Assembly (NCBI GenBank): GCA_030680795.1
Contig: JAUXUL010000007.1
Coordinates: forward strand, 124,001 to 188,000
Direction: 5' to 3'
DNA: 64,000 nt
Origin: Anaerolineales bacterium
GTDB lineage: Bacteria; Chloroflexota; Anaerolineae; Anaerolineales; Villigracilaceae
Within the stretch, counting starts at the first letter, position 1. Every line of letters begins with the position of its first letter. Under the pieces are notes generated by a model. The model was not told the DNA's origin, made no database searches, and was given only the letters and a program-made list of their open reading frames with translations. The translations under genes and the position numbers were made by a program. Shown here piece by piece: positions 26,140-44,047 of the stretch.

Positions 26140-27444
26140 TTATTCCGCCGCCAATGCCACCTTGTCATCAAACGATGGTTCTTCCATTTTGTTCCTAAAC
26201 GCCTGAACATCAATCCGCGTGAGCAGGATGGCGGCGATGAACAGCATCAAGGCTTCGATGCCAAAGACGATCAGATACCCGCTCAAGGCAGAGCCTGTGA
26301 CCTGCGTTGCCACATCCGCCACGACCCCGGCGAGCAGCAAACCAGTCAGGCGGGACATGCCATTCGAGAAACCCCAGGCACCGATATATAAGCCGACTTT
26401 TCCAGCAACAGTCAGGTCAAACATCAAGGACAGGTTTGCAATTGTGGAAATACCTATGCCAAAGCCAAGCAGCATAATGCCAGTGTAGAAAACATTCAGG
26501 CTGTGCATCAAACCGCTTAGGATGATAAACAGGAAGCCAACGAGTGCGCCGAGGTTGCCAGTTTGGGCAACGGTCTTCTTTGGCACACGCCCCTCCAAGA
26601 AGCCTGCAACTACAAAAGCGATCAATGTGAAAACGCCGCTGATGGACACGATGCGGGTGGTGGCTTCAACAGACATACCAAAGGCTTGCGCGCCGAATGG
26701 TTCCAGAAGCACATCCTGCCCGAGGAGCGCGGCCAGCAATAAAAGCAAATAAACGAAGAATACTTTTGCAACAGGATTGGCTGTGATGGCAGAGATCATC
26801 TGTTTCACGGTGTACGACTCGGATTGCGGACTTAAGTTCGCAGACCTGGCGGATGGCTCAAGTTTGATGAGGCCGAGCAGACCAAGGGTCAGGGCTGAAG
26901 CGCCGACGACATTAAAGGCCTGCGAGAGAGTCTCTGGCGAGTAGGTTGTCAACATGCGGCTTAATCCGATCCCCGTCGCAATTAAACCGATCACCATCAT
27001 GAAGAACATGGTCGCAATGGTTTTGCTGCGTTCTTTTTCTCCGGAAAGTTCGGAGGCCAGTGAGAGATAGCATACTGCCGAGAGGTTGAAGCCCATGCCC
27101 CAGGCGCCAAAGGCAAGCAAGCCTGCCAGGATGCCGAGCGCAAAGTTGTCCTGGATCAGGTATGCGACACGCGGGGAGATGACCAGACCCACTACACATA
27201 AAATGAGCCCTGTCAGAATGTATGGTGTGCGGCGATAACCGAGGATCGGGTGACGGTCTGAAAATGAGCCAATGGCGACTTGAATGGGCGAGATCAGATA
27301 CGGGAGCACCGCGAGGATCGAGACGAGGGTCTTTGAGATTTCGAGGTCGAAGATCATCACACGGTTAAGCGTGCTGTTGATCGGGACGAGGGTCATCGCG
27401 ACTGCGACATGAATGAGACCAAGTTGAAAACGTTTTAGGAACAT
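26140..27444 (-). CDS. MFS transporter, BCD/PucC-like family
   Basis: 434 residues, 12 helices. The beginning FLKRFQLGLIHVAVAMTLVPINSTLNRVMIFDLEISKTLVSILAVLPYLISPIQVAIGSFSDRHPILGYRRTPYI has the features of the BCD (bacteriochlorophyll-delivery) MFS family: the NRVMI segment after TM1, the P(I/L)Q-x-x-x-G-x-x-SD motif, and the GxRRTPYI loop. PucC-type proteins help light-harvesting assembly in phototrophs; related proteins in non-phototrophs have no known cargo. Nothing else in this window is photosynthetic, so the cargo is open. ATG at 27444. An upstream hairpin and the 438-base gap contain its control region. The downstream HTH gene is probably functionally linked. Confidence 0.8.
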   Translation of the reverse strand: MFLKRFQLGLIHVAVAMTLVPINSTLNRVMIFDLEISKTLVSILAVLPYLISPIQVAIGSFSDRHPILGYRRTPYILTGLILCVVGLVISPRVAYLIQDNFALGILAGLLAFGAWGMGFNLSAVCYLSLASELSGEKERSKTIATMFFMMVIGLIATGIGLSRMLTTYSPETLSQAFNVVGASALTLGLLGLIKLEPSARSANLSPQSESYTVKQMISAITANPVAKVFFVYLLLLLAALLGQDVLLEPFGAQAFGMSVEATTRIVSISGVFTLIAFVVAGFLEGRVPKKTVAQTGNLGALVGFLFIILSGLMHSLNVFYTGIMLLGFGIGISTIANLSLMFDLTVAGKVGLYIGAWGFSNGMSRLTGLLLAGVVADVATQVTGSALSGYLIVFGIEALMLFIAAILLTRIDVQAFRNKMEEPSFDDKVALAAE

Positions 27445-27882: not shown

Positions 27883-29370
27883 ATGAAACCATTAATTGTC
27901 GTTATATCAAACCGAGGACCCTTTGAATTCAAGAAAAAAGCAGATGGTCTCTTCGAAGCCCAGCGCGGGAGTGGAGGTTTGGTAACTGCATTGGGCGCGT
28001 TGGCTGAAAAGCACGATGTGCTCTGGGTGGCGGCCGCCATGAGTAAAGATGATCATCGCTGGCTGCAAGCGAGCGGCGATAAACCGCAAAATGTTGAAGG
28101 GATTTCCCTGCTATTGATGGAACCCTCCAAAAAGGCCTATCAGGGCTATTACAATGAGATCGCAAATCCGTTGCTCTGGTTTACTCAACATCAATTATGG
28201 GATACACCGCGCACCCCCAGTATCACACAAGAGACCTGGAATGCCTGGGAGAATGGATATGTCGAAATTAATCGCGCCTTCGCTCGCGTGGTGGCAGAGA
28301 CGATAAAGGATGAAAAGCGCCCCGTGATCATTCTCCCGCAGGATTATCACCTGTATTTGCTGCCTTACTATCTGCGTGAAATATTGGGCGAGAATGTGCA
28401 AATTCAACCGTTTATTCATATTCCATGGCCGGGTCCGGATGCCTGGCGGATATTGCCCAATCGAATACGCAGGGCGATTTTGACCAGTTTGCTGCAAGCC
28501 GACCGGGTTGGTTTTCAAACCCAGAAAGACGCCTTTAACTTTGTTCAGACCTGTCGTTTTTATCTGGAGGATGCTCATTCGCGCGGCAGCCGGAATACTG
28601 TTTATTACAACGAACGTGTGGTTAAGGCGATTGCCTACCCAATTTCAATTGATACACAAATTCTACAAGCCCTGGTTGAAGAACCGCAGACAGACCTGCT
28701 CAAGTCTCAACTGTATAACTTTGTCGGTGATCGCAAACTGATTTTGCGGGTCGACCGTATTGAACCGAGCAAGAATATATTACGCGGCCTTGAAGCCTAT
28801 CGCACGCTGCTTGAAAAACACCCCGAGCATCGCGGCAAGGTGCAAATGCTGGCATTGCTTGTTCCGTCCCGCATGGAGGTGGATGAATATCAGAATTATC
28901 TGCGGGATATTATGTCTGAAGCCGGGATGATCAATGCCAACTACAGCACCCCTTTCTGGGAATCGGTCCGGATCGTTGTAGGCGATAACTACCAGCGTGC
29001 GATTGCCGCCATGCAATTCTATGATGTGCTGCTGGTGAACCCGATAGCCGATGGTATGAACCTGGTTGCCAAGGAAGGTGTGCTTGTCAATCAAAAGGAT
29101 GGCGTTCTGGTTCTTTCAGAAGATGCCGGGGCGTTTTACGAACTTGGCGAGCATGCGCTGACTGTGTCTCCCTTCGATACTTTTAGTACAGCTAACGCTA
29201 TTCATGAGGCATTAACCATGCCGCCGGAGGAAAAACGCGCGCGCGCCGAAGCCCTGCGGCAAATTGTCATCAACGCAGATATCCGTGATTGGTTCTATCG
29301 TCAGGTGGAGGACGCGATGCGTGATTTTGACAGCCAGCCTAAAAAGGATTCAACCCCCGCAACTTCCTGA
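27883..29370 (+). CDS. otsA: trehalose-6-phosphate synthase, GT20 family
   Basis: 495 residues. Transfers glucose from a nucleotide sugar to glucose-6-phosphate. Evidence: VVISNRGPFEF, GGLVTALGAL (donor loop), LPQDYHLYLLPYYLRE, PFIHIPWPGPDAWRILP, ADRVGFQTQKDAFNF, RVDRIEPSKNILRGLEAY, and PIADGMNLVAKEGVL near the donor site. ATG at 27883 with GGAG seven bases upstream; an in-frame TTG four codons earlier is less likely. The protein also resembles glucosylglycerol-phosphate-type synthases, so the product could be another glucoside, but a trehalose-phosphatase gene on the other strand ends inside its 3' end and treS is nearby. The last 70 bases overlap otsB tail to tail. Confidence 0.85.
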   Translation: MKPLIVVISNRGPFEFKKKADGLFEAQRGSGGLVTALGALAEKHDVLWVAAAMSKDDHRWLQASGDKPQNVEGISLLLMEPSKKAYQGYYNEIANPLLWFTQHQLWDTPRTPSITQETWNAWENGYVEINRAFARVVAETIKDEKRPVIILPQDYHLYLLPYYLREILGENVQIQPFIHIPWPGPDAWRILPNRIRRAILTSLLQADRVGFQTQKDAFNFVQTCRFYLEDAHSRGSRNTVYYNERVVKAIAYPISIDTQILQALVEEPQTDLLKSQLYNFVGDRKLILRVDRIEPSKNILRGLEAYRTLLEKHPEHRGKVQMLALLVPSRMEVDEYQNYLRDIMSEAGMINANYSTPFWESVRIVVGDNYQRAIAAMQFYDVLLVNPIADGMNLVAKEGVLVNQKDGVLVLSEDAGAFYELGEHALTVSPFDTFSTANAIHEALTMPPEEKRARAEALRQIVINADIRDWFYRQVEDAMRDFDSQPKKDSTPATS

Positions 29371-30390: not shown

Positions 30391-30434
30391 TTGACACTTT
30401 ACAACTTGATATGCTAAACTGAAAGTGCTTTCAG
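30391..30434 (+). promoter_or_regulatory. promoter and operator of the LacI-family gene
   Basis: TTGACA (30391-30396), spacer 18, TAAACT (30415-30420) with an ATATGC extension, overlapped by the operator CTGAAAGTGCTTTCAG (30419-30434). The same operator core is found before the sugar-transport operon at 31548-31563, so the regulator probably represses its own gene too. Confidence 0.75.
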
Positions 30435-30442
30435 AAAAAATC

Positions 30443-31453
30443 ATGCCGCCTCAAAAAAAAACGCCCACCATCTATGATGTAGCCAAACTATCTGGCGTTA
30501 GTATTTCGACGATCTCGCGCGTGTTGAATGCGCCAGATAAAGTAAATTCGAAAACGCACAAGCGCGTGATGGCTGCCATTGATCAACTTGGATTTGTTCC
30601 AAAGGCGGACGCGCGCGCCCGCGCATTGCAAAACACGGATCGCATCGGTGTCTTGACACCAATTTTCACGGCCCCCTCCTTTGTACAACGCCTCAGAGGA
30701 GTTGCTTCTGCTTTATCAAAAGCAAATTATGAATTGGTGATCTATCCGGTCGATTCAATGGATCACCTGCAAGGGTATATTTCTTCCATTCCACTAATGA
30801 GAAATATTGACGGTTTGATCATCATGTCCCTGTCCATTGGAGATCAGGATGCACAGCGCTTATCCAACCATGACATGGAAACAGTCTTGATCGAATATTC
30901 ACATCCGCAATTGAACAGCATCCAAATTGACGATCTGCATGGAGGGCGGCTGGTTGCGGAGCATCTCCTCAACAAGGGACATAAAAAATTTGCATTTCTG
31001 GGTGATATTGAGCCGCCTGAAAGATTTGCGATCCATCCTGTCAAATCGCGCCTGACGGGATTTAAGCAGGCACTAGACGAAGCGGGTTTGTCATTGCCAA
31101 AAGCATATATCCGCTCAGCTCCCTATACCCAGAAAGAATCCAGGCAGGGCGCACAGGAATTGCTTTGTTTGCCAAAGCCGCCCACGGCAATATTTGCCGC
31201 ATCGGATATTCAGGCATTGAGTGTCATGAAAGTGGCGCGCCAATTAAATATCAAAATCCCAGACGAATTGGCTATTGTCGGTTTTGACGATGTTGATGTG
31301 GCTGAGCACGTGGATCTGACAACCATCTGCCAGCACCTGGATGAATCAGGCAGGCTGGCGGTTGAAATCCTGCTTTCACGCATTGGCGAATCAGGCCGTC
31401 CGCTTCAACATATCAACCTGCCATTGAAATTAGTCGAGCGCATGACCACATAA
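30443..31453 (+). CDS. LacI-family transcriptional regulator of the alpha-glucoside locus
   Basis: 336 residues. N-terminal HTH: TIYDVAKLSGVSISTISRVLNAPDKVNSKTHKRVMAAIDQLGFVPKADARAR (hinge included), then a periplasmic-binding-protein-like effector domain (RIGVLTPIFTAPSFVQRLRGVASALSKANYELVIYPVD ... FAFLGDIEPPERFAIHPVKSRLTGFKQALDEAG ... PPTAIFAASDIQALSVMKVARQLNIKIPDELAIVGFDDVDVAEH). ATG at 30443 is taken because the alternative GTG at 30425 lies in the operator. The leader from the predicted start is only about 15 bases and has no clear ribosome-binding site. It sits next to the sugar ABC operon, which carries a matching operator. The effector is probably an alpha-glucoside. Confidence 0.9.
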   Translation: MPPQKKTPTIYDVAKLSGVSISTISRVLNAPDKVNSKTHKRVMAAIDQLGFVPKADARARALQNTDRIGVLTPIFTAPSFVQRLRGVASALSKANYELVIYPVDSMDHLQGYISSIPLMRNIDGLIIMSLSIGDQDAQRLSNHDMETVLIEYSHPQLNSIQIDDLHGGRLVAEHLLNKGHKKFAFLGDIEPPERFAIHPVKSRLTGFKQALDEAGLSLPKAYIRSAPYTQKESRQGAQELLCLPKPPTAIFAASDIQALSVMKVARQLNIKIPDELAIVGFDDVDVAEHVDLTTICQHLDESGRLAVEILLSRIGESGRPLQHINLPLKLVERMTT

Positions 31454-31698: not shown

Positions 31699-33033
31699 AT
31701 GAAAAAATTACCCTTACAAATATTTGCTTTAGTGCTCTTAGCTGCCATGCTGCTCACTGCTTGTGGTGGCACCGCTACCGAAGCGCCCCCTGCTACCGAA
31801 GCGCCCGCTGCTACTGAAGCGCCCGCTGCTACTGAGGCGCCCGGCGCTGATGACCTGTGCATGGGCGCAGTAGCTGGTGATGAGGTTAGCCTGCTCTATC
31901 AATGGTCCGGTCAGGAAGAAGAACGCCTTAACCAGATCCTTCAACCTCTTGTGGATGCATGTGGACTCGTACTCAAACCAGAATCCACACGCGACCAGGC
32001 CTTGCTTGATACACGCGTACAGGCTGGCACACCACCGGATATTGCTTTCTGGAACGTAACACAACTGACCCAGTATGAAGACAAGCTCTTCGCCATGGAC
32101 GCTCTTGGCGCCAGCGCTGATGCTTATATCCCCGGCGCAATCGACTCAGGCGTGATCAATGGCAAGTGGCTGGGACTCCCAGTTAAATCCGATATCAAAA
32201 CCATAATCTGGTACAGCCCGGTAAACTTTGCCGCCGCTGGATACACCGTCCCAACTACCTGGGAAGAATTGGATGCCCTCGTTGAAAAGATGGTTGCCGA
32301 TGGAAACGTTCCGTGGTCCATGGGCATTGAATCTGGTGATGCGACTGGCTGGACCGGATCGGACTTCCTGCAGGACATTCTTCTTGTCCAACAAGGACCG
32401 GAATATGTCATGAACATCATCAATGGAACAGTCTCGTATGATGATGCAGGCGTTGTGCAAGCCTACGAAACCTATGGCAAATGGGCGACAGATCCAGTCT
32501 ATGCAGTAGGCGGCGCGCAAGGCACCCTCTCAACCGGATTCCTGGATGCGATCCATAAACCGTTCAGCGATCCCGCGGAAGCCATGATGGTGAAGCAGTC
32601 CGGTTTCGCAGGTGGCGAAATTAAGGCTACCTATGCTGACCTGGAATTTGGCACAGACTACGATTTCTTCGTCGTACCTGGCGCTCGCGGATTACAGGGC
32701 GGCTCCGACTGGATGATGGCATTCAGCGATAGCGCTGCTGTGAACGCTTTGGTAGCCTATCTTTCATCGCCTGAAGGCGGTGCAAATTGGGCAAAGGCCA
32801 GCTTTGATCTTTCACCGAATAAAGGCGCGGCAGGAAATTACACCGACCCGTCCTTGATCAAGAAAGCGGAAGCCTTCTACAACTCACAAGGGTTCACGCC
32901 GGATATTGGCGACTCGATCCCTGGCGGCTTCGGCAGCGCCGAGTGGAAAGCCATCGTGGATTACCTCAACGGAGGTGACCTAGCAACCGCATTGGCAGGA
33001 GCCGCGGCAGTCCAAGCAGAAGCATTAAAGTAA
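31699..33033 (+). CDS. sugar ABC transporter substrate-binding lipoprotein (alpha-glucoside type)
   Basis: 444 residues. Lipoprotein signal MKKLPLQIFALVLLAAMLLTAC (lipid Cys at 22), then tandem EAPxATEAP repeats as a flexible tether (TEAPPATEAPAATEAP-type, residues about 27-48). The binding fold then shows EEERLNQILQPLVDACGL, RVQAGTPPDIAFWN, GLPVKSDIKTIIWYSPVNFAAAGYTVPTTWEELDALVEKMVADG, and WMMAFSDSAAVNALVAYLSSPEGGANW. This matches the AglE/ThuE group of extracellular alpha-glucoside-binding proteins. First gene of the LacI-controlled operon. A strong hairpin between it and the permease gene could give more of this subunit than of the permeases. Confidence 0.85.
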   Translation: MKKLPLQIFALVLLAAMLLTACGGTATEAPPATEAPAATEAPAATEAPGADDLCMGAVAGDEVSLLYQWSGQEEERLNQILQPLVDACGLVLKPESTRDQALLDTRVQAGTPPDIAFWNVTQLTQYEDKLFAMDALGASADAYIPGAIDSGVINGKWLGLPVKSDIKTIIWYSPVNFAAAGYTVPTTWEELDALVEKMVADGNVPWSMGIESGDATGWTGSDFLQDILLVQQGPEYVMNIINGTVSYDDAGVVQAYETYGKWATDPVYAVGGAQGTLSTGFLDAIHKPFSDPAEAMMVKQSGFAGGEIKATYADLEFGTDYDFFVVPGARGLQGGSDWMMAFSDSAAVNALVAYLSSPEGGANWAKASFDLSPNKGAAGNYTDPSLIKKAEAFYNSQGFTPDIGDSIPGGFGSAEWKAIVDYLNGGDLATALAGAAAVQAEALK

Positions 33034-33051: not shown

Positions 33052-33081
33052 CTGGGGACGCCTCGGTGGAGGCGTCCCCAG
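33052..33081 (+). terminator. intercistronic hairpin
   Basis: 13-bp perfect stem (CTGGGGACGCCTC with GAGGCGTCCCCAG) and a four-base loop between the binding-protein and permease genes. Without a T-run it may act as an mRNA stabiliser or a partial terminator that raises expression of the binding protein relative to the permeases. Confidence 0.6.
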
Positions 33082-33107
33082 TCTTGATTTCAAAACAGGA
33101 GGACCAT

Positions 33108-34070
33108 ATGGCTGCGCGTTCAGTACCTAACATTATGAAGCAGGGCAAGCTGGCGCCCTGGTTATATCTGCTACCCGCGCTTTTGGTCATGACTTTTTTT
33201 ATCGTCTACCCAATGATCAACACGATCTCATTAAGTTTCAGCAACAAGGACGGAACCGCCTCAGCCGCCACTACCTGTGTGGAAGGCAAACCATGTTGGG
33301 GCATTTTTGAGAATTACCACTATGCGCTAACCGCGGAGCTTGATACCAGCTCCTTCTCCACCTTCTGGTCATCCTTCTGGGGCTCCTCGTATGGAAACAC
33401 GCTCAAATGGATCGTCTTGATGGTCAGTGGATCTGTCGGCTTGGGCTTGACCTTTGCGGTGCTGGCAGACCGCGTTAAGTATGAAGCGTTTGCAAAGTCC
33501 ATTATCTTTATGCCGATGGCCGTTTCCTTCGTTGGGGCAGGCATCATCTGGAAATTCGTCTACGACTACGGGACCAAGCAGATGCAGATTGGTTTGCTGA
33601 ACGCCGTCATTACTTCATTGGGCGGACAACCCGTCGCCTTTTTATCCGTACCGCAACTCAACACGATTGCCTTGCTCGTTGTGGGCGTGTGGATCTGGAC
33701 GGGTTTCTGCATGACTATTCTTTCTGCCTCCCTCAAAGCAGTGCCCGATGAAATCATCGAAGCAGCGCGTGTAGATGGCGCCCAAGAGTGGACTATCTTC
33801 TGGAAAATTATGATTCCGATCATTATGCCAACCATTACGGTTGTGATCACAATCATGGTTATCAATGTGCTCAAGTTGTTCGATATCGTCTATGTAATGA
33901 CCGGAGGCAACTTTGGCACGAATGTGATCGCCAATCGCATGTACACTGAAATGTATAAAAACTTTAACGTGGGGCGCGGCACAGCGATTGCAGTTGTACT
34001 TGTTCTCGCAATCATCCCATTCATCTACTATAATATCAGGCGCTTTATCGCGCAGGAGGAGATGCGATGA
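33108..34070 (+). CDS. sugar ABC transporter permease 1 (AglF/MalF type)
   Basis: 320 residues. Six main helices: LAPWLYLLPALLVMTFFIVYPMINTISL, TLKWIVLMVSGSVGLGLTFAVLA, AKSIIFMPMAVSFVGAGIIWKFVY, TIALLVVGVWIWTGFCMTIL, TITVVITIMVINVLKLFDIVYVM and AIAVVLVLAIIPFIYYNI. The EAA loop is EIIEAARVDGAQEWTIFWKIMIPIIMPTI. The outer loop between helices 1 and 2 (about residues 45-88) is extended and contains two cysteines (TTCVEGKPCWG), which may form a disulfide. ATG at 33108 with AGGAGG; an earlier in-frame start would cross the hairpin. It overlaps permease 2 by four bases (ATGA). Confidence 0.9.
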   Translation: MAARSVPNIMKQGKLAPWLYLLPALLVMTFFIVYPMINTISLSFSNKDGTASAATTCVEGKPCWGIFENYHYALTAELDTSSFSTFWSSFWGSSYGNTLKWIVLMVSGSVGLGLTFAVLADRVKYEAFAKSIIFMPMAVSFVGAGIIWKFVYDYGTKQMQIGLLNAVITSLGGQPVAFLSVPQLNTIALLVVGVWIWTGFCMTILSASLKAVPDEIIEAARVDGAQEWTIFWKIMIPIIMPTITVVITIMVINVLKLFDIVYVMTGGNFGTNVIANRMYTEMYKNFNVGRGTAIAVVLVLAIIPFIYYNIRRFIAQEEMR

Positions 34071-35251
34071 ACCGCGATCGCATTAACAAAATCCTCAACC
34101 AAATACCCACTCACTTCATTATTATTTTCATGATCCTGATCTGGGTGGTCCCTACACTCGGATTGCTTATCACCTCCCTGCGCCCGGTGCAGGCGGTCAA
34201 CACCTCTGGCTGGTGGACGGTGCTTTCTCCTCCACGCGGCTCTGCGGAATACAATCAGTATTGTGCCTCCTGCCACGGAGTGGAGGGTATCGCTATAACA
34301 AACGCCGATCTCACTGATCCGGAATTGATCAGCCGTTTTCCGCGTTCCCTTCAACTATTGGCGACTTTGCGTGCGGATATAAACAGTCAACCCCATATGC
34401 AGGATACGCCTGTTCCCGAAGATCAAGCCGCTGCCGACATTGCCGTCCACCTTAAAAAAATTTCAGGAATTGACGAACAACCGCGTTTCACTTTCAGCAA
34501 CTATATTGACGCTCTCGTCGGTTATCGGGGTACACGCTCATATCAAAAGGACTGTGCGGCTGGAACAGCTCCACTAGACATCCATTGCGATACCAGTGAC
34601 CTGCTCAATCCGCGCGGGATGGGACGTGCTTTTGTAAACAGTTTACTTGTCACAATCCCTGCGACCTTCCTGCCGATCTTATTTGCGGCATTTGCAGGTT
34701 ATGCTTTTGCCTGGCTCGATTTCAAGGGGCGCTTCCTGCTTTTTTCGATCCTGGTCGGCTTGCAAGTCGTGCCTCTTCAAATGACACTGGTCCCAATCTC
34801 TCGGCTTTACGCCCAATTAGGATTAAACGGAACCTTCCTCGGTGTGTGGCTGTTCCATACCGGCTTTGGAATGCCTTATGCGATTTACCTAATGCGGAAT
34901 TTTCTCGGGTCGCTTCCGCGCGACTTGTTCGAATCAGCTTATTTGGACGGCGCATCTCATTGGACGGCTTTCTACCAACTGGTCATACCATTAGCCATGC
35001 CCGCCATTGCATCACTGGGCATCTTTCAATTCCTGTGGGTCTGGAATGATCTGCTGGTTGCGTTGGTATTCCTTGGCGGCACGACGCCGGTCATGACTTA
35101 CCAGATCAGCAATATGGTCACTTCGTTGGGTGCCGGCTGGCAACTACTGACCGCATCGGCTTTTCTTTCGATGCTTTTGCCGATGATTGTATTCTTTGCC
35201 CTTCAGCGATATTTTGTCCGTGGAATGCTGGCAGGCGCGGTCAAAGGTTAA
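34067..35251 (+). CDS. sugar ABC transporter permease 2 (AglG/MalG type) with inserted cytochrome c-like segment
   Basis: 394 residues, about 100 more than usual. TM1 (FIIIFMILIWVVPTLGLLITSL, about 17-38) is followed by LRPVQAVNTSGWWTVLSPP, as in MalG-type permeases. Then comes a stretch (about 57-133) absent from the family: a heme-binding motif CASCH (Cys66, Cys69, His70) and a later PHM (Met111) followed by PEDQAAADIAVHLKKI, the pattern of a small class I cytochrome c. The family sequence resumes at FTFSNYIDALV and continues with the other helices and the EAA loop SAYLDGASHWTAFYQLVIPLAMPAI. A second outer Cys pair (DCAAG, IHCDT) lies before TM2. Topology places the insertion outside the membrane, where heme is attached. 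Frame and neighbours are intact. Confidence 0.85.
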   Translation: MNRDRINKILNQIPTHFIIIFMILIWVVPTLGLLITSLRPVQAVNTSGWWTVLSPPRGSAEYNQYCASCHGVEGIAITNADLTDPELISRFPRSLQLLATLRADINSQPHMQDTPVPEDQAAADIAVHLKKISGIDEQPRFTFSNYIDALVGYRGTRSYQKDCAAGTAPLDIHCDTSDLLNPRGMGRAFVNSLLVTIPATFLPILFAAFAGYAFAWLDFKGRFLLFSILVGLQVVPLQMTLVPISRLYAQLGLNGTFLGVWLFHTGFGMPYAIYLMRNFLGSLPRDLFESAYLDGASHWTAFYQLVIPLAMPAIASLGIFQFLWVWNDLLVALVFLGGTTPVMTYQISNMVTSLGAGWQLLTASAFLSMLLPMIVFFALQRYFVRGMLAGAVKG

Positions 35252-35365: not shown

Positions 35366-37129
35366 TTGAACACATCACTGTTGGAACTCCTGCAAAACAA
35401 AATTGATATTACGCATGTCCCTTTCAGCGACCGCGACTCACGCCTGCTGGTGTATCAACGTGCTGATAAATCCAGTTTGTACATAAAACTTGCGGAACGA
35501 CTCATCAAGGTCGAACCCGGAATAGAAAGTTACCAGGGTCGCCCTCCGTTCATTGACGATCTGTGCTTTATTGATGAACACAAAAACATGCTGGACTTTA
35601 ATACATACACATCTGCTGAGATGGTACGGTTTCAAAGTCGTGTGGGTGATTTCCGCCTTGTGTTTCAAGATTTGAACACTTTAGTGTTCGGTATTCCCGA
35701 TCACACAATTGCGGGAATTCGTTTCCGCATACGTCCAACACATTGGCATAAAACAGATTCGGGCGGAGAATTTAGGCATGTGCGAAATGCTATTTACAGC
35801 ATAAATAATGGCAGGGTGATCGCAAATCAAGCTCAAAGCGACGAAAACAGCCTCCTCGTGGAGTTTATCGTTCAGGCAGAATCCGATTGCTCTGCCGCCA
35901 TTCATATTGGCGATGACAGCGCTCCAGCTCAAGTACCTTTTTCGGTCGCGTACACCAACGCGCAAGTCCGCTGGAAAAAATGGTTCGACAGCGTACCAGA
36001 TGTTAATGAAACCTATCGCGAAAAGTACGCGTACGCTTGGTGGGTCATGGCAAATAACCTGATCAGCCCCATGGGGTATGTGACACGTGAAGCCATGATG
36101 CCAACCAAAGCCTTTTACGTTGGAGTATGGTTATGGGACAGCGCGCTTCATGCAATTGCTTATCGTCATATTGACCCCGAATTGGCGCGGGACCAAATCC
36201 GTGTCATGCTGGATCACCAATTATCTGATGGAATGTTGCCCGATGCCATTTTCGATGAAGGGATCGTGTCAGAAATACACCATCCCTTTCATGCGCGCGT
36301 AACCAAACCGCCTATTCTTGCATGGGCGGCATTGAAGATCCATGAAACCGATCCTAATCTTGATTTTTTAAAGGAAATCTACGCTCCGCTAAAACGCTGC
36401 AATGCCTGGTGGTTCAAGGCCAACGATGATGATGGGGATGGGATCGTGCAATATACGCATCCATACTCATCCGGGCTGGATGATAGTCCGCTTTGGGATC
36501 ATGGCATGCCTGTTGAATCCCCTGATATTAACACCTATCTGATCATCCAAATGAACTCTCTCGCAATCATTGCAGAGGCACTTGGCAAGACGGATGAAGC
36601 GCATAGATGGCGAAAAAAAGCGAAGGTGCTTGGTAACCGCACGATCAAACATTTTTGGGATGAAAAGGCTGGCTTGTTTCAGGCCTTGCATAATGAGAAA
36701 CCAATCCCGGTGATTACTCCTGTCAACCTTTATCCATTGTGGACAGGCCAACTGCCCGATAAAATCACAAAGCGCCTGCTCGCGCATTTGACCGACCCAG
36801 CCGAATTTTGGGGAAGATTCGGACTGCCGACCACGGCCTTCAACGGCCCAGCATACAACCCGGAAAAAATGTGGCGCGGACCTGTCTGGGCAAACATCAA
36901 TTATTTTTTTGTAGAGGCTCTGCAAAAGATCGGCGAGCATCAACTTGCAACTGAATTGCGCGATAAGACCTTGCATTTAATCGCCAGCCAGCCGGGTATT
37001 CGAGAATACTATAATTCCCAAACGGGCGAGCCTCCCGCATCAGCCGCCCCGATCTTCGGATGGACCGCGGCGGTTTTTATTGAACTCTCACTTCAAGCGA
37101 ATATGGAAGATCATTCAAGACCCATGTGA
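35366..37129 (+). CDS. GH63-family glycoside hydrolase (mannosylglycerate/glucosylglycerate hydrolase-like)
   Basis: 587 residues. The C-terminal (alpha/alpha)6 barrel is clear: MPTKAFYVGVWLWDSALHAIAYRHIDPELARDQIRVMLDHQLSDGMLPDAIFDEG, LAWAALKIHE, EKMWRGPVWANINYFFVEAL, and GIREYYNSQTGEPPASAAPIFGWTAAVFIEL. In GH63 the acid is the Asp of WLWDSA and the base a Glu near the C-terminal REYYNSQTGE motif. The substrate could be an alpha-glucoside or a compatible solute such as glucosylglycerate. The only usable start near the N-terminus is TTG at 35366; the frame is open back to 35273 without ATG or GTG, and there is no good ribosome-binding site. It lies between the importer and treS on the same strand. 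Confidence 0.8.
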   Translation: MNTSLLELLQNKIDITHVPFSDRDSRLLVYQRADKSSLYIKLAERLIKVEPGIESYQGRPPFIDDLCFIDEHKNMLDFNTYTSAEMVRFQSRVGDFRLVFQDLNTLVFGIPDHTIAGIRFRIRPTHWHKTDSGGEFRHVRNAIYSINNGRVIANQAQSDENSLLVEFIVQAESDCSAAIHIGDDSAPAQVPFSVAYTNAQVRWKKWFDSVPDVNETYREKYAYAWWVMANNLISPMGYVTREAMMPTKAFYVGVWLWDSALHAIAYRHIDPELARDQIRVMLDHQLSDGMLPDAIFDEGIVSEIHHPFHARVTKPPILAWAALKIHETDPNLDFLKEIYAPLKRCNAWWFKANDDDGDGIVQYTHPYSSGLDDSPLWDHGMPVESPDINTYLIIQMNSLAIIAEALGKTDEAHRWRKKAKVLGNRTIKHFWDEKAGLFQALHNEKPIPVITPVNLYPLWTGQLPDKITKRLLAHLTDPAEFWGRFGLPTTAFNGPAYNPEKMWRGPVWANINYFFVEALQKIGEHQLATELRDKTLHLIASQPGIREYYNSQTGEPPASAAPIFGWTAAVFIELSLQANMEDHSRPM

Positions 37130-37144
37130 CAAAATTAGCTTATT

Positions 37145-38761
37145 ATGAATAACACCCTCTGGTACAAAGACGCCATTTTCTACGAAGTCTATGTTCGCGC
37201 CTTTTACGATAGCAACAGCGATGGGCATGGAGATATCAAAGGCTTAATTCAAAAACTCGACTATCTGCAGGAACTCGGGGTTACCTGTCTCTGGCTGCTG
37301 CCCATCTACCCCTCACCCTTAAAAGACGATGGGTATGATATTTCAAATCATTACGGAGTTCACCCAAACTATGGGACTCTGGATGATTTCAAGGAACTGC
37401 TCGACTCAGCTCATGAACGCGGCCTGCGCGTCGTCATGGACCTCGTCCTGAATCACACCTCGGACCAACATCCCTGGTTTCTGGCGGCGCGCGCCAATCC
37501 CAACTCTCTTTTCAGAAACTATTATGTTTGGAGCGAATCAAGTCTGAAATATCGCGACGCGCGCATCATATTTACGGACACAGAAGAGTCGAACTGGGCC
37601 TGGGACGAAGCCTCCAAACAATACTACTGGCATCGCTTCTATTCCTCACAACCTGACCTGAATTACGACAACCCTCTCGTTCAGGATGAAGTTCAAAAAA
37701 TCATCAGTTTCTGGTTCGATCTGGGCGTGGATGGATTCCGCGCGGATGCAGTTCCCTATCTAATCGAACGCGAAGGTACAAGTAGTGAGAACCTGCCCGA
37801 AACCCATGCATTCCTAAGAAAAATACGCCGCTTCATCAATAAAAATTATCCGGGTCGAATTTTGATGGCGGAAGCCAATCAATGGCCCGAAGATGTCTTG
37901 CCCTACTTTGGCAAAGGAAATGACGAATTCCAGATGGGCTTTAATTTCCCGATCATGCCGCGCATCTTCATGTCCATTCGTAAAGCGGACCGCACCCAAC
38001 TCGTATGGATTATGAGCCGCACCCCGTTTCTGCGCGAGAAAAATCAGTGGGTCATGTTCCTGCGCAACCATGATGAACTGACGCTCGAGATGGTCACGGA
38101 AGACGAACGCCAGTGGATGTGGGAACAATACGCGCCCGAACCGCGCATGCGCTTGAATCTTGGGATTCGCCGCCGCCTGGCCCCGCTGCTCGATAACGAC
38201 CGCCGCCAGATAGAACTGGCGCACTCCTTGTTGTTCACCCTGCCCGGCTCGCCGATCATTTATTATGGAGATGAGATCGGTATGGGAGATAATATCTGGC
38301 TGCACGACCGCAACGGTGTCCGCACACCCATGCAATGGGACGCGGAATCAAATGCCGGCTTTTCTGAAGCGCCCGCCCAGTCCATCTACTCCCAAATCAA
38401 TGACGACGAGGTTTATGGGCCGGCAAAGGTGAATGTGGAGAGCCAGCAAAAAGACCCAAACTCAATGTGGTACTCGATTCGTCATATGATATCAATCAGG
38501 AAAGGACATCACGCCTTTGGATGGGGCGACTTTGAATGGATCGATTGCAACAACGATCAAATTGCGGCATATCGTAGAACATACAATGGTGAAACCATTT
38601 TGGTCTTTCAAAATCTCGGCGGCCAAATTCAAAATATATCCTACAAACCAAAAAGACCAATGAAAATTCGCACCGACCTTTTGACACAATTGGAATTCGC
38701 ATCCAGCAACGGAAGGGTTGATCTGCAACTGGAGCCTTACCAATATCTCTGGCTGAAATAA
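37145..38761 (+). CDS. treS: maltose alpha-D-glucosyltransferase/trehalose synthase, GH13
   Basis: 538 residues. TreS isomerises maltose and trehalose. The N-terminus [54 protein letters not shown] is typical. Catalytic residues: Asp in [12 protein letters not shown], Glu in [11 protein letters not shown], Asp in [42 protein letters not shown] and [17 protein letters not shown] are also conserved. The C-terminal beta domain ([21 protein letters not shown]) is complete and no maltokinase is fused. ATG at 37145, 15 bases after the GH63 gene, so one mRNA is likely with the importer genes. It links imported maltose-like sugars to the trehalose pool made by OtsA and OtsB. Confidence 0.92.
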
Positions 38762-38846: not shown

Positions 38847-39554
38847 TCAATCCAACTTTCCTGTCACCATGGCCAGCTTCACTTCACCGATGGCCTTCGT
38901 GATCTTGATATCACGCGGACAGGCTTCGGTGCAGTTATATGCTGTATGACAGCGCACTGTACCATCTGTCTCGCTCAGGATTTGCAAACGTTGTGAAGCG
39001 CCTTCATCGCGGCTGTCGAAGATAAAGCGATGCGCGGTCACAATCGCAGCGGGACCGTAATAGTTGCCGTTCGCCCAATACGATGGGCAGGAGGTGGTGC
39101 AAGCCGCGCACAAAATACATTTTGTTGATTCGTCGAATCGCGCGCGGTCTTCGGGGCTTTGCAAACGCTCGCGTCCATCGGCAGGCAACGGGCTGTCGTT
39201 GATCAAATATGGGAGCATCTTCTTGTAGTTATCGAAGAACGGATCCATATCCACGATCAAATCTTTCTTAACCTTCAAGCCAAGCATAGGTTCAACGGTG
39301 ATATTCGCTCCTACGTCGCGCACCAAAGTTTTGCACGCCAGATGATTACGCCCGTTAATGCGCATTGCGTCCGATCCGCATACGCCATGCGCGCACGAAC
39401 GGCGGAATGCGAGCGAACCATCGGTTTTGCCTTTGATATGTTCAAGCACATCCAACACGCGGTCATTCTCGTCACCTTCCACTACATAAGTTTCGTAATG
39501 GCCGCGCGTATCTTTCTCGGGATCATATCGAAGGATTTTTACTGTTAATTCCAT
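38847..39554 (-). CDS. sdhB: succinate dehydrogenase iron-sulfur subunit (operon 1)
   Basis: 235 residues. [2Fe-2S] domain: CAHGVCGSDAMRINGRNHLAC, in which the third ligand position is Asp (GSD), as in E. coli SdhB. [4Fe-4S]: CILCAACTTSCP. [3Fe-4S]: CHTAYNCTEACP with KITKAIGEVK. Electrons pass from the flavoprotein through these clusters to quinone. Start MELTVKILRYDP at 39554; codons further upstream translate a repeat. Last gene of operon 1 (order C-D-A-B on the minus strand), separated from sdhA by a TCATTGCGAG-family repeat of about 95 bases. Confidence 0.93.
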   Translation of the reverse strand: MELTVKILRYDPEKDTRGHYETYVVEGDENDRVLDVLEHIKGKTDGSLAFRRSCAHGVCGSDAMRINGRNHLACKTLVRDVGANITVEPMLGLKVKKDLIVDMDPFFDNYKKMLPYLINDSPLPADGRERLQSPEDRARFDESTKCILCAACTTSCPSYWANGNYYGPAAIVTAHRFIFDSRDEGASQRLQILSETDGTVRCHTAYNCTEACPRDIKITKAIGEVKLAMVTGKLD

Positions 39555-39569
39555 AAATGACTCCTCTAT

Positions 39570-39663
39570 GTCATCGCGAGGGCGCACTTGTTCTTCGCCC
39601 GAAACAATCTCCCACACAACGAGGGGATTGCTTCGTCGGGAAGAACGCCCTTCTCGAATGACG
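39570..39663. repeat. TCATTGCGAG dispersed repeat between sdhA and sdhB
   Basis: GTCATCGCGAGGGCG on the left and AACGCCCTTCTCGAATGAC on the right, with CAATCTCCCACACAACGAGG and GGATTGCTTC inside. Same layout as 44991-45067. Confidence 0.8.
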
Positions 39664-43213: not shown

Positions 43214-44047
43214 TTACACTGTCCTCGGCGGCGGAGCAAACTCTTCAATCGCCTTCACTACATCAGCCAAAGGCATTACCTTCGCAAGCAATGATTTCTT
43301 TTTTCCAAATCCAATGCTATCCAGAACCAATGCGCGTTTGAGCAGTTGGATGCCGAAGGCTGGGTCAACACCTTTGGGGCAGGCTTGTGAACACGCGCCC
43401 GCGAAGTGACATTGATACGGTCCGTGGAAAATATCAATCGCTTCGATGCGTTCCTTCATGCCGCAGTCACGGTTGTCGGCAGTGTATCGGTAGGCTTGAG
43501 CAAGCGCCTGAGGTCCAAGGAAGAGCGGATCTGTCGCAACGGTCGGACAAGCCGCGAGGCATAATCCGCATTTGATGCAATGAGTGAACTGGCTAAAGGC
43601 TTCGCGTTCCTCAGGAGTTTGCAGGAATTCACCGGTTGGGGAATCAATTTCGATTTGATCGGTATAAATAATGTAAGGTTTGATCGCCGCGTGCTTTTCG
43701 ATCAATGGCGCGAGATCAGGCACAAGGTCTTTGACATTGTCATAATTTGGAAGCGGCGCGATCGAAACCACGTCCGTTCCCAAATGCAGAACCTGAGTTT
43801 GACAGGCAAGCTGTGGAAGTTCATTGATGAACATCCCGCACGAACCGCAGACTCCCATGCGGCAGGAGGAACGCCACGACAAGGTCGGTTCCTGCTCCGC
43901 CTTGAGCTGGTGCAGCGCCTCGAGCACGGTCATCCCGTCGTGGACATGCTGACGGTATTCGCTCCAATGGGGCGCGGAATCCGTATCAGGGTCAAAGCGG
44001 CGGACGCGGAAGGTGATCTCTCGCGGGGTGTTTGTCTTATCACTCAT
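43214..44047 (-). CDS. fumarate reductase/succinate dehydrogenase iron-sulfur subunit (operon 2)
   Basis: 277 residues. [2Fe-2S] domain: CRMGVCGSCGMFINELPQLAC, with Cys (not Asp) at the third position as in E. coli FrdB. [4Fe-4S]: CIKCGLCLAACP. Third cluster: CHFAGACSQACPKGVDPAFGIQLLKRALV. The motifs differ clearly from sdhB of operon 1, so the two operons are not a recent duplication. The C-terminal extension of about 40 residues ends in a proline-rich tail. Start MSDKTNTPREITFRVRRFDPD at 44047, five bases after the upstream anchor gene. Last gene of operon 2 (order A-C-D-B). Confidence 0.9.
   Translation of the reverse strand: MSDKTNTPREITFRVRRFDPDTDSAPHWSEYRQHVHDGMTVLEALHQLKAEQEPTLSWRSSCRMGVCGSCGMFINELPQLACQTQVLHLGTDVVSIAPLPNYDNVKDLVPDLAPLIEKHAAIKPYIIYTDQIEIDSPTGEFLQTPEEREAFSQFTHCIKCGLCLAACPTVATDPLFLGPQALAQAYRYTADNRDCGMKERIEAIDIFHGPYQCHFAGACSQACPKGVDPAFGIQLLKRALVLDSIGFGKKKSLLAKVMPLADVVKAIEEFAPPPRTV

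Follow-up and report, generated by a model that had tools for sequence, protein, structure and literature searches.

Why would a sugar importer carry what looks like a cytochrome c in the loop of one of its membrane subunits? This question arose from a 64,000-nt stretch of an Anaerolineales genome (GCA_030680795.1, contig JAUXUL010000007.1, positions 124,001 to 188,000; hereafter the window), in which a MalG/SugB-type permease gene of an ATP-binding cassette (ABC) transporter (34067–35251, + strand) was predicted to contain an inserted cytochrome c domain. All coordinates given below are positions within the window unless a locus is named, and residue numbers are those of the 394-residue permease. 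Sequence comparisons and structural models indicated that the outer-loop insert is almost certainly a mono-heme, class-I-like cytochrome c domain.

The permease itself appeared complete. Its open reading frame (ORF) matched the Pfam family BPD_transp_1 over residues 207–387 (E 7.2e-15, 55.6 bits, cut-off 26.4), and the top Foldseek matches of an AlphaFold2 model of the whole protein were SugB (8hps_B, E 6.6e-9) and MalG (3puv_G, E 1.9e-8). The EAA-like stretch ESAYLDGASHWTAF, which we take to be the EAA motif, was intact. In the model, the first transmembrane helix (TM1; residues 15–37, 34109–34177) and the TM2 region (residues 185–216, 34619–34714) flanked a compact helical domain at approximately residues 52–135 (34220–34471), with block values of the predicted local distance difference test (pLDDT) of 80–92 across residues 51–140. 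The gene started within the stop codon of the MalF-type gene that precedes it (33066–34070), the two sharing an ATGA at 34067–34070. These observations agreed with an initial annotation made from the sequence alone, which had placed an insert between TM1 and TM2 and had described the reading frame, the helices and the EAA loop as intact and the two permease genes as overlapping. The insertion that it had put at about 75 residues was real, and its measured size was 62–78 residues, since the loop had 96 residues here and 18–34 in nine insert-less orthologues (alignment A1).

The identity of the insert was supported by several approaches. Pfam assigned residues 57–120 to Cytochrome_CBB3 (PF13442; E 4.5e-5 for the whole protein, 9.2e-6 for the insert alone), with scores of 24.1 and 26.3 bits, respectively, that narrowly missed the curated cut-off of 27 bits. 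When the insert was modelled alone, a cytochrome c fold with a pLDDT of 87.9 was obtained. In a fold search with VIA, every one of the 50 matches listed was a cytochrome c or a larger protein containing such a domain (Z 5.5–7.0 over 72–89 residues), such as c6 (9krr, Z 7.0), OmcF (3cu4, 6.9), CcoP (3mk7, 6.7) and c550 (1mz4, 5.8). A profile built from 36 inserts matched CcoP fused to cytochrome cy (E 2e-7, several domains summed) and CcoP alone (E 5e-6 to 2e-5). The Pfam family, the conservation of the CXXCH motif, the model and the fold matches thus concurred with the mono-heme class I cytochrome c that had been proposed. A chance origin was excluded, because CXXCH occurred in the loop of 88 permeases, a second histidine followed at 39–41 residues in 87 of them, and the domain was modelled with a pLDDT of 80–92. 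The genome of the window also encodes several other CXXCH proteins; that the insert derives from one of the genome's own cytochromes was considered and dropped, as no close relative was found (next best E 0.003).

Which residues would hold the heme was assessed in 88 distinct insert-bearing sequences, which remained from 89 sequences scoring above 130 bits after the insert-less L074 was set aside. CXXCH was present in 88/88 (here CASCH, residues 66–70, 34262–34276), and no insert of this family without it was seen. The distance from the proximal to the second histidine, His110 in the window (34394–34396), was 40 residues in 77 sequences, 41 in nine and 39 in one. The initial annotation had correctly located both CASCH and a methionine at position 111 (34397–34399), and had taken the latter for the second ligand. 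Met111 was rejected as an axial ligand on conservation: the residue after the second histidine (n = 87) was Met in 42, Leu in 25, Val in 12, Ile in six and Thr in two sequences, Met occupied the position in 28 of 45 aligned permeases, and any Met at 36–49 residues past the proximal histidine was found in 48/88. Met111 is therefore, as judged from the alignments, a lineage-specific neighbour of a conserved histidine. Since His110 was conserved and Met111 was not, His110 is the likely distal ligand, and we consider it probable that the heme is ligated by His70 and His110 (bis-His). Structural alignment to the M58H mutant of c6 (4h0k) superimposed insert residues 10–92 on residues 4–86; the alignment ends put His70 on c6 residue 18 and His110 on the distal-ligand position 58, provided that no compensating gaps occur.

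Two permeases departed from this pattern. At locus L064 (5387–6565), the distal loop of a heme-type permease was shortened, with the second histidine at 34 residues and an extra GQMP further along, possibly an axial-ligand switch. At L091 (4986–6566), a permease of the same clade carried two tandem cytochrome domains in one loop, each with a CXXCH, a later PH[IV]P and its own second histidine. The ligand pattern also bears on whether the domain senses a gas or another small ligand (NO, CO, O2 or sulfide) that would displace the distal ligand and block or enable uptake. The altered distal region of L064, with its added Met-Pro, would suit such a function, as would the cytochrome-nitrite reductase fusions or putative eNOR genes of some Anaerolineales (PMC8756737, in part). 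Against this, a distal histidine that is near-fixed in 87/88 sequences would make the heme six-coordinate and less suited to gas binding, and we regard gas sensing as quite improbable.

The insertion recurred in related genomes. Searches with the first 178 residues as the query found it in 12 of the 61 genomes of a set of relatives, and profile searches were extended to draws from the order, the class and the phylum (Chloroflexota), the genome draws overlapping one another. With an N-terminal profile, 55 of 301 genomes of the order were positive (one hit being cut by a contig end), all 55 with CXXCH. The class draw yielded 22 of 298 genomes, 16 of them outside the order and from 12 families, and the phylum draw 10 of 400, every one from the window's own family. 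Scores in the order draw were clearly split: the lowest-scoring insert-bearing match, cut by the contig end, had E 2.9e-49, and the next match, an insert-less orthologue, E 2.9e-22. When the 298 class genomes were searched with a profile of the insert only, the identical 22 genomes were recovered with one match each (E ≤1.3e-25), so that within this sample the domain was confined to this permease. Fourteen further genomes gave matches at E 4.6e-7 and weaker; the one picked among them for its permease-like length (G922) was an unrelated protein with two CXXCH. In a scan of genome contigs, in which 80 of 382 candidates were retained, the Actinomycetota loci among those 80 had no CXXCH in the matched ORF.

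Judging from this distribution, the cytochrome insert is an old feature of many Anaerolineae and not a one-off insertion. A misassembly at the locus was likewise excluded, because the same architecture was found in dozens of other genomes. An assembly join or a misread frame, which could in principle have produced the fusion, would have had to arise in many independent assemblies, including those of two congeneric genomes (G021, G026) that each form a single contig, and is so improbable as to be negligible.

In a maximum-likelihood tree of 94 permeases (insert columns left out, quick method, some long branches), a single clade (SH-aLRT 99) comprised all 45 insert-bearing rows together with 16 insert-less ones. 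CXXCH was absent from the loop of the remaining 33 rows, which came from Chloroflexota and Actinomycetota. Within the clade, the insert-less rows fell at about three places (L076/L077; L082, L090 and kin; L074), and 12 of the 16 were named as Anaerolineaceae. The tree requires four changes overall, two of them forced by well supported branches, and is best read as a single gain in the ancestor of an Anaerolineae clade followed by two to three clean losses, a direction that parsimony counts alone cannot set. In the nine insert-less orthologues measured, the whole domain was gone (18–34 loop residues, about 96 with the insert). No decayed cytochrome remnant was seen in the insert-less rows, the others of which, L092 apart, resembled these nine in the alignment. 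At L092 (3688–5666), one MalG copy has an unrelated, non-heme insert at this loop position. Immediately after it lies a second copy, a fragment broken at its N-terminus that is close to the heme clade and supplies the L092 row.

Compared with 11 orthologues, the non-synonymous differences (pN) were 0.17–0.33 in the insert and 0.03–0.11 in the rest of the permease, and the synonymous differences (pS) were 0.68–0.91 over both parts (insert 0.71–0.91), with synonymous sites near saturation. By these values the insert is under purifying selection, looser than that on the permease. An old insertion that is tolerated without any role would be consistent with the similar operon of some clade lineages that lack the insert. 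It would hardly account for non-synonymous differences far fewer than the synonymous ones, nor for a CXXCH and a second histidine that are conserved over 88 sequences and a class-wide range, and it therefore seems very improbable.

The permease belongs to a conserved neighbourhood, for which 55 clade loci were compared, the counts being lowered by short contigs. Its genes in the window were all on the + strand. The first encodes a LacI-family repressor (30425–31453; Pfam LacI and Peripla_BP_3), and a LacI-like ORF was found in 42/55 loci, in one of them downstream (L063). It is followed by a sugar-binding lipoprotein with a lipobox-like start, LTACGG (31699–33033; orthologue in 53/55), whose best match in the PDB was AcbH (E 2e-10); it had no Pfam match at 1e-3, and NCBIfam sugar-binding models stayed below their cut-offs. 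Next comes the MalF/SugA-type permease (33066–34070; BPD_transp_1, E 1.4e-18; orthologue in 54/55), and the presence of this partner and of the sugar-binding protein fits a permease of the CUT1 family. Downstream of the cytochrome-bearing permease are an MGH1-like/GH63-type glycoside hydrolase (35366–37129; PF22422, E 5.5e-79; similar ORF in 14/55) and a trehalose synthase-type GH13 enzyme (37145–38761; TIGR02456 treS_nterm, 802.7 bits, cut-off 678; similar GH13 ORF in 44/55). OtsA and OtsB genes lie just upstream of the operon. Because a TreS-like GH13, OtsA and OtsB are nearby, the substrate is likely trehalose or a related glucoside, an assignment drawn from the neighbours and the rank of the fold matches, the matches of the binding protein being weak. 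No ATPase gene was present among the operon genes scanned, from LacI to TreS, the rest of the genome not being searched for one; in the CUT1 family it is common for an ATPase to be shared from another locus.

Other genes of the window were recorded alongside. A PucC-like protein of the major facilitator superfamily (26140–27444; PF03209, E 1.2e-74) adjoins the trehalose genes, and L054 has a similar gene next to its operon; PF03209 is known from phototrophs. OtsA and OtsB are convergent, and their reading frames share 70 bases at the 3' ends (29301–29370). Further downstream, two Fer2_3/Fer4-type iron-sulfur subunit genes, both of the succinate dehydrogenase/fumarate reductase kind, are located on the same strand about 3.6 kb apart (38847–39617 and 43214–44047).

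A heme partner encoded in the operon was looked for and rejected. No CXXCH gene recurred beside the operon in the 55 loci, in a comparison that covered CXXCH-bearing genes only; some CXXCH ORF of at least 100 residues lay within the fetched flanks of 11/55 loci, six of them on the minus strand, scattered and not inspected individually. This result bears on the possibility that the permease-anchored cytochrome transfers electrons from an outer-surface enzyme (e.g., a sugar-oxidising dehydrogenase or a multiheme cytochrome) to the respiratory chain, with the transporter serving as a scaffold close to its sugar. Such a path is favoured by the usual function of bis-His class I domains as electron carriers, by the COX1 gene that the genome has besides its other CXXCH proteins, and by the tandem domains of L091 in the same loop. 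The lack of a recurrent CXXCH neighbour, in a comparison that did not cover cupredoxins and dehydrogenases, speaks against it and is better explained by a sensor than by a dedicated electron-transfer path. A heme at this site, with two histidine ligands and an insert of near-constant length, would also be less expected of a freely moving electron shuttle than of a redox-responsive element fixed in place. We regard electron transfer as improbable.

We hypothesize, tentatively, that the heme domain is a redox-responsive regulatory element that controls transport from near the docking site of the binding protein. The genome of the window has the genetic potential for attaching the heme: the marker for cytochrome c maturation (Ccm), PF01578, was matched twice on contig C9, in frames of 695 and 292 residues that lie 7 kb apart and are CcmF- and CcmC-like by size, and a third time on C43. 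The Ccm system would attach heme c outside the membrane, and ligation by His70 and His110 would give a low-potential, six-coordinate heme of the electron-transfer type. A cytochrome pool at the membrane surface would reduce or oxidise this heme, and the change in redox state would alter how the sugar-binding lipoprotein docks or is stimulated at the outer loop of the MalG-type subunit. Uptake of trehalose or a related sugar would thereby follow the respiratory state, and in many Anaerolineae sugar import may be linked to cellular redox conditions. In its full form, in which a covalent bis-His heme c senses cell-surface redox, gates delivery by the binding protein and couples carbon uptake to respiration without gene regulation, the proposal is more doubtful still. 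Its starting points are the observed domain, ligand pattern, conservation, loss pattern and operon; heme attachment, the potential and any effect on uptake are steps that we infer.

As to the docking site, the domain-bearing loop faces the side on which the binding protein docks, and residues 70–72 of MalG presumably lie in the corresponding TM1–TM2 loop. In simulations of MalFGK2E of E. coli, these periplasmic-side residues contact MalE directly and show some of the largest shifts within MalG over the ATP cycle (PMC3150292, in part). Cysteine pairs of the importer (71/77 in MalF, 163/174 in MalG, 54/88 in the binding protein) were considered as redox switches and rejected; they are also found without the insert, and are for this reason probably structural. 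In the permease, Cys163 and Cys174, in the remainder of the outer loop (34553–34588), were both present in 45/45 heme-type rows of the alignment, and C163 was kept in 15/16 and C174 in 16/16 insert-less clade rows; the pair probably forms a structural disulfide.

If the domain binds heme c, it would be expected to accompany Ccm genes. Tests in 47 of 56 clade loci, after L092 was dropped, covered 31 heme-type and 15 insert-less genomes, most of the records being metagenome assemblies whose completeness is not given. Ccm genes were present in 31/31 insert-bearing and 8/15 insert-less genomes (Fisher p 1.2e-4, kinship ignored), and COX1 exceeded its cut-off in 23/31 and 2/15, respectively. In the set of relatives, Ccm genes were found in 12/12 heme-type and 46/49 other genomes, and were thus too nearly universal to be informative there; the corresponding counts for COX1 were 11/12 and 42/49.

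Several results weigh against redox regulation, or against parts of it. Once relatedness is respected, the Ccm and COX1 associations rest on two to three independent pairs, too few for significance, which would take at least six informative pairs, and for this reason the co-occurrence of the insert with Ccm genes is merely suggestive. COX1 above the cut-off was missing from 8/31 heme-type genomes, and PF00115 does not separate oxidases from nitric oxide reductases; a strict tie to oxygen respiration is therefore unsupported, in the relatives as in the orthologue set. As for the domain itself, the Z values from VIA were moderate (best 7.0), in a range flagged by the tool's own note, and Foldseek returned nothing for the insert alone at E 0.001 (best E 0.028). 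The insert had 2.8–6.5 times the non-synonymous differences of the remaining permease. Finally, residues associated with the insert amounted to one conservative column in MalF (39 insert-bearing and 15 insert-less sequences compared) and none in the binding protein (38 and 14), although some co-variation might be anticipated in a protein that docks there.

The main rival to redox regulation is a structural role, in which the heme serves the fold only and the domain is a heme-stiffened module for folding, stability or docking on the outer face of the importer. Permease and operon are intact in the insert-less orthologues, so transport itself needs no cytochrome domain; the insert length is nearly constant (87–104 residues in single-heme forms), which suggests a rigid part, and the rate at the protein level is high outside the heme residues. 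A purely structural module would, however, be expected to occur now and then in an apo version, yet CXXCH and the second histidine were each present in 88/88 sequences (the latter at 39–41 residues in 87 and at 34 in one), and the insert-less orthologues partly coincide with missing Ccm genes (7/15 without). On balance, we consider a structural role rather unlikely.

Few transporters are understood as well as the binding-protein-dependent sugar importers, none of which is known to us to bind heme covalently. Should the domain gate uptake, it would be a post-translational link from the respiratory chain to carbon import. If it is structural, a redox cofactor would have been co-opted as a permanent component of a permease, class-wide and absent in sister lineages that often have no Ccm genes. 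In either case, this group of little-cultured Anaerolineae is marked as a place to seek respiratory control of sugar use.

The components of the system are known, namely a MalG/SugB permease and a class I cytochrome c; their present combination is unreported in the literature searched, as no description of a MalG-type permease with a cytochrome c insert was found in open-licence publications. The permease shares its fold and its operon partners with LpqY-SugABC of mycobacteria (SugB) and MalFGK2 of E. coli (MalG), and the trehalose-type neighbours (TreS, OtsA, OtsB) would fit a trehalose-like substrate as in LpqY-SugABC. In contrast to the 394 residues here, the SugB and MalG chains among the fold matches listed have 254–293, and the insert makes up most of the difference. 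With the class I cytochromes c6, CcoP of cbb3 oxidase and c550/PsbV, the insert shares the fold, the CXXCH and, by the alignment ends, the distal-ligand position. Its candidate ligand pair resembles that of c550 (1mz4), which we take to be bis-His, whereas c6 and CcoP have the usual distal Met in place of His. These cytochromes are soluble carriers or oxidase subunits; the domain described here is located inside the loop of a membrane transporter.

Joining of transporter and cytochrome has a precedent in ORFs that combine a cytochrome (C1) homologue with FTR1, EcfT or ArsB_NhaD domains, cases described there as rare or isolated (PMC8756737, Table A3, in part). The permease part here belongs to BPD_transp_1, with no FTR1, EcfT or ArsB-type family in Pfam at E 1, and a MalG-type protein is absent from the rows of Table A3, with MalG, UgpE, BPD_transp and ABC transporter unmatched in the accessible part of the text (PMC8756737). 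Unlike those fusions, the one described here is conserved in a clade. CydDC is likewise an ABC transporter tied to heme and respiration, with reports of an ATPase modulated by hemes (PMC4132815, in part) and of heme transport (PMC10374445, in part). In CydDC, heme is a substrate or an effector, whereas here it would be held covalently, as heme c, in a domain of a sugar importer.

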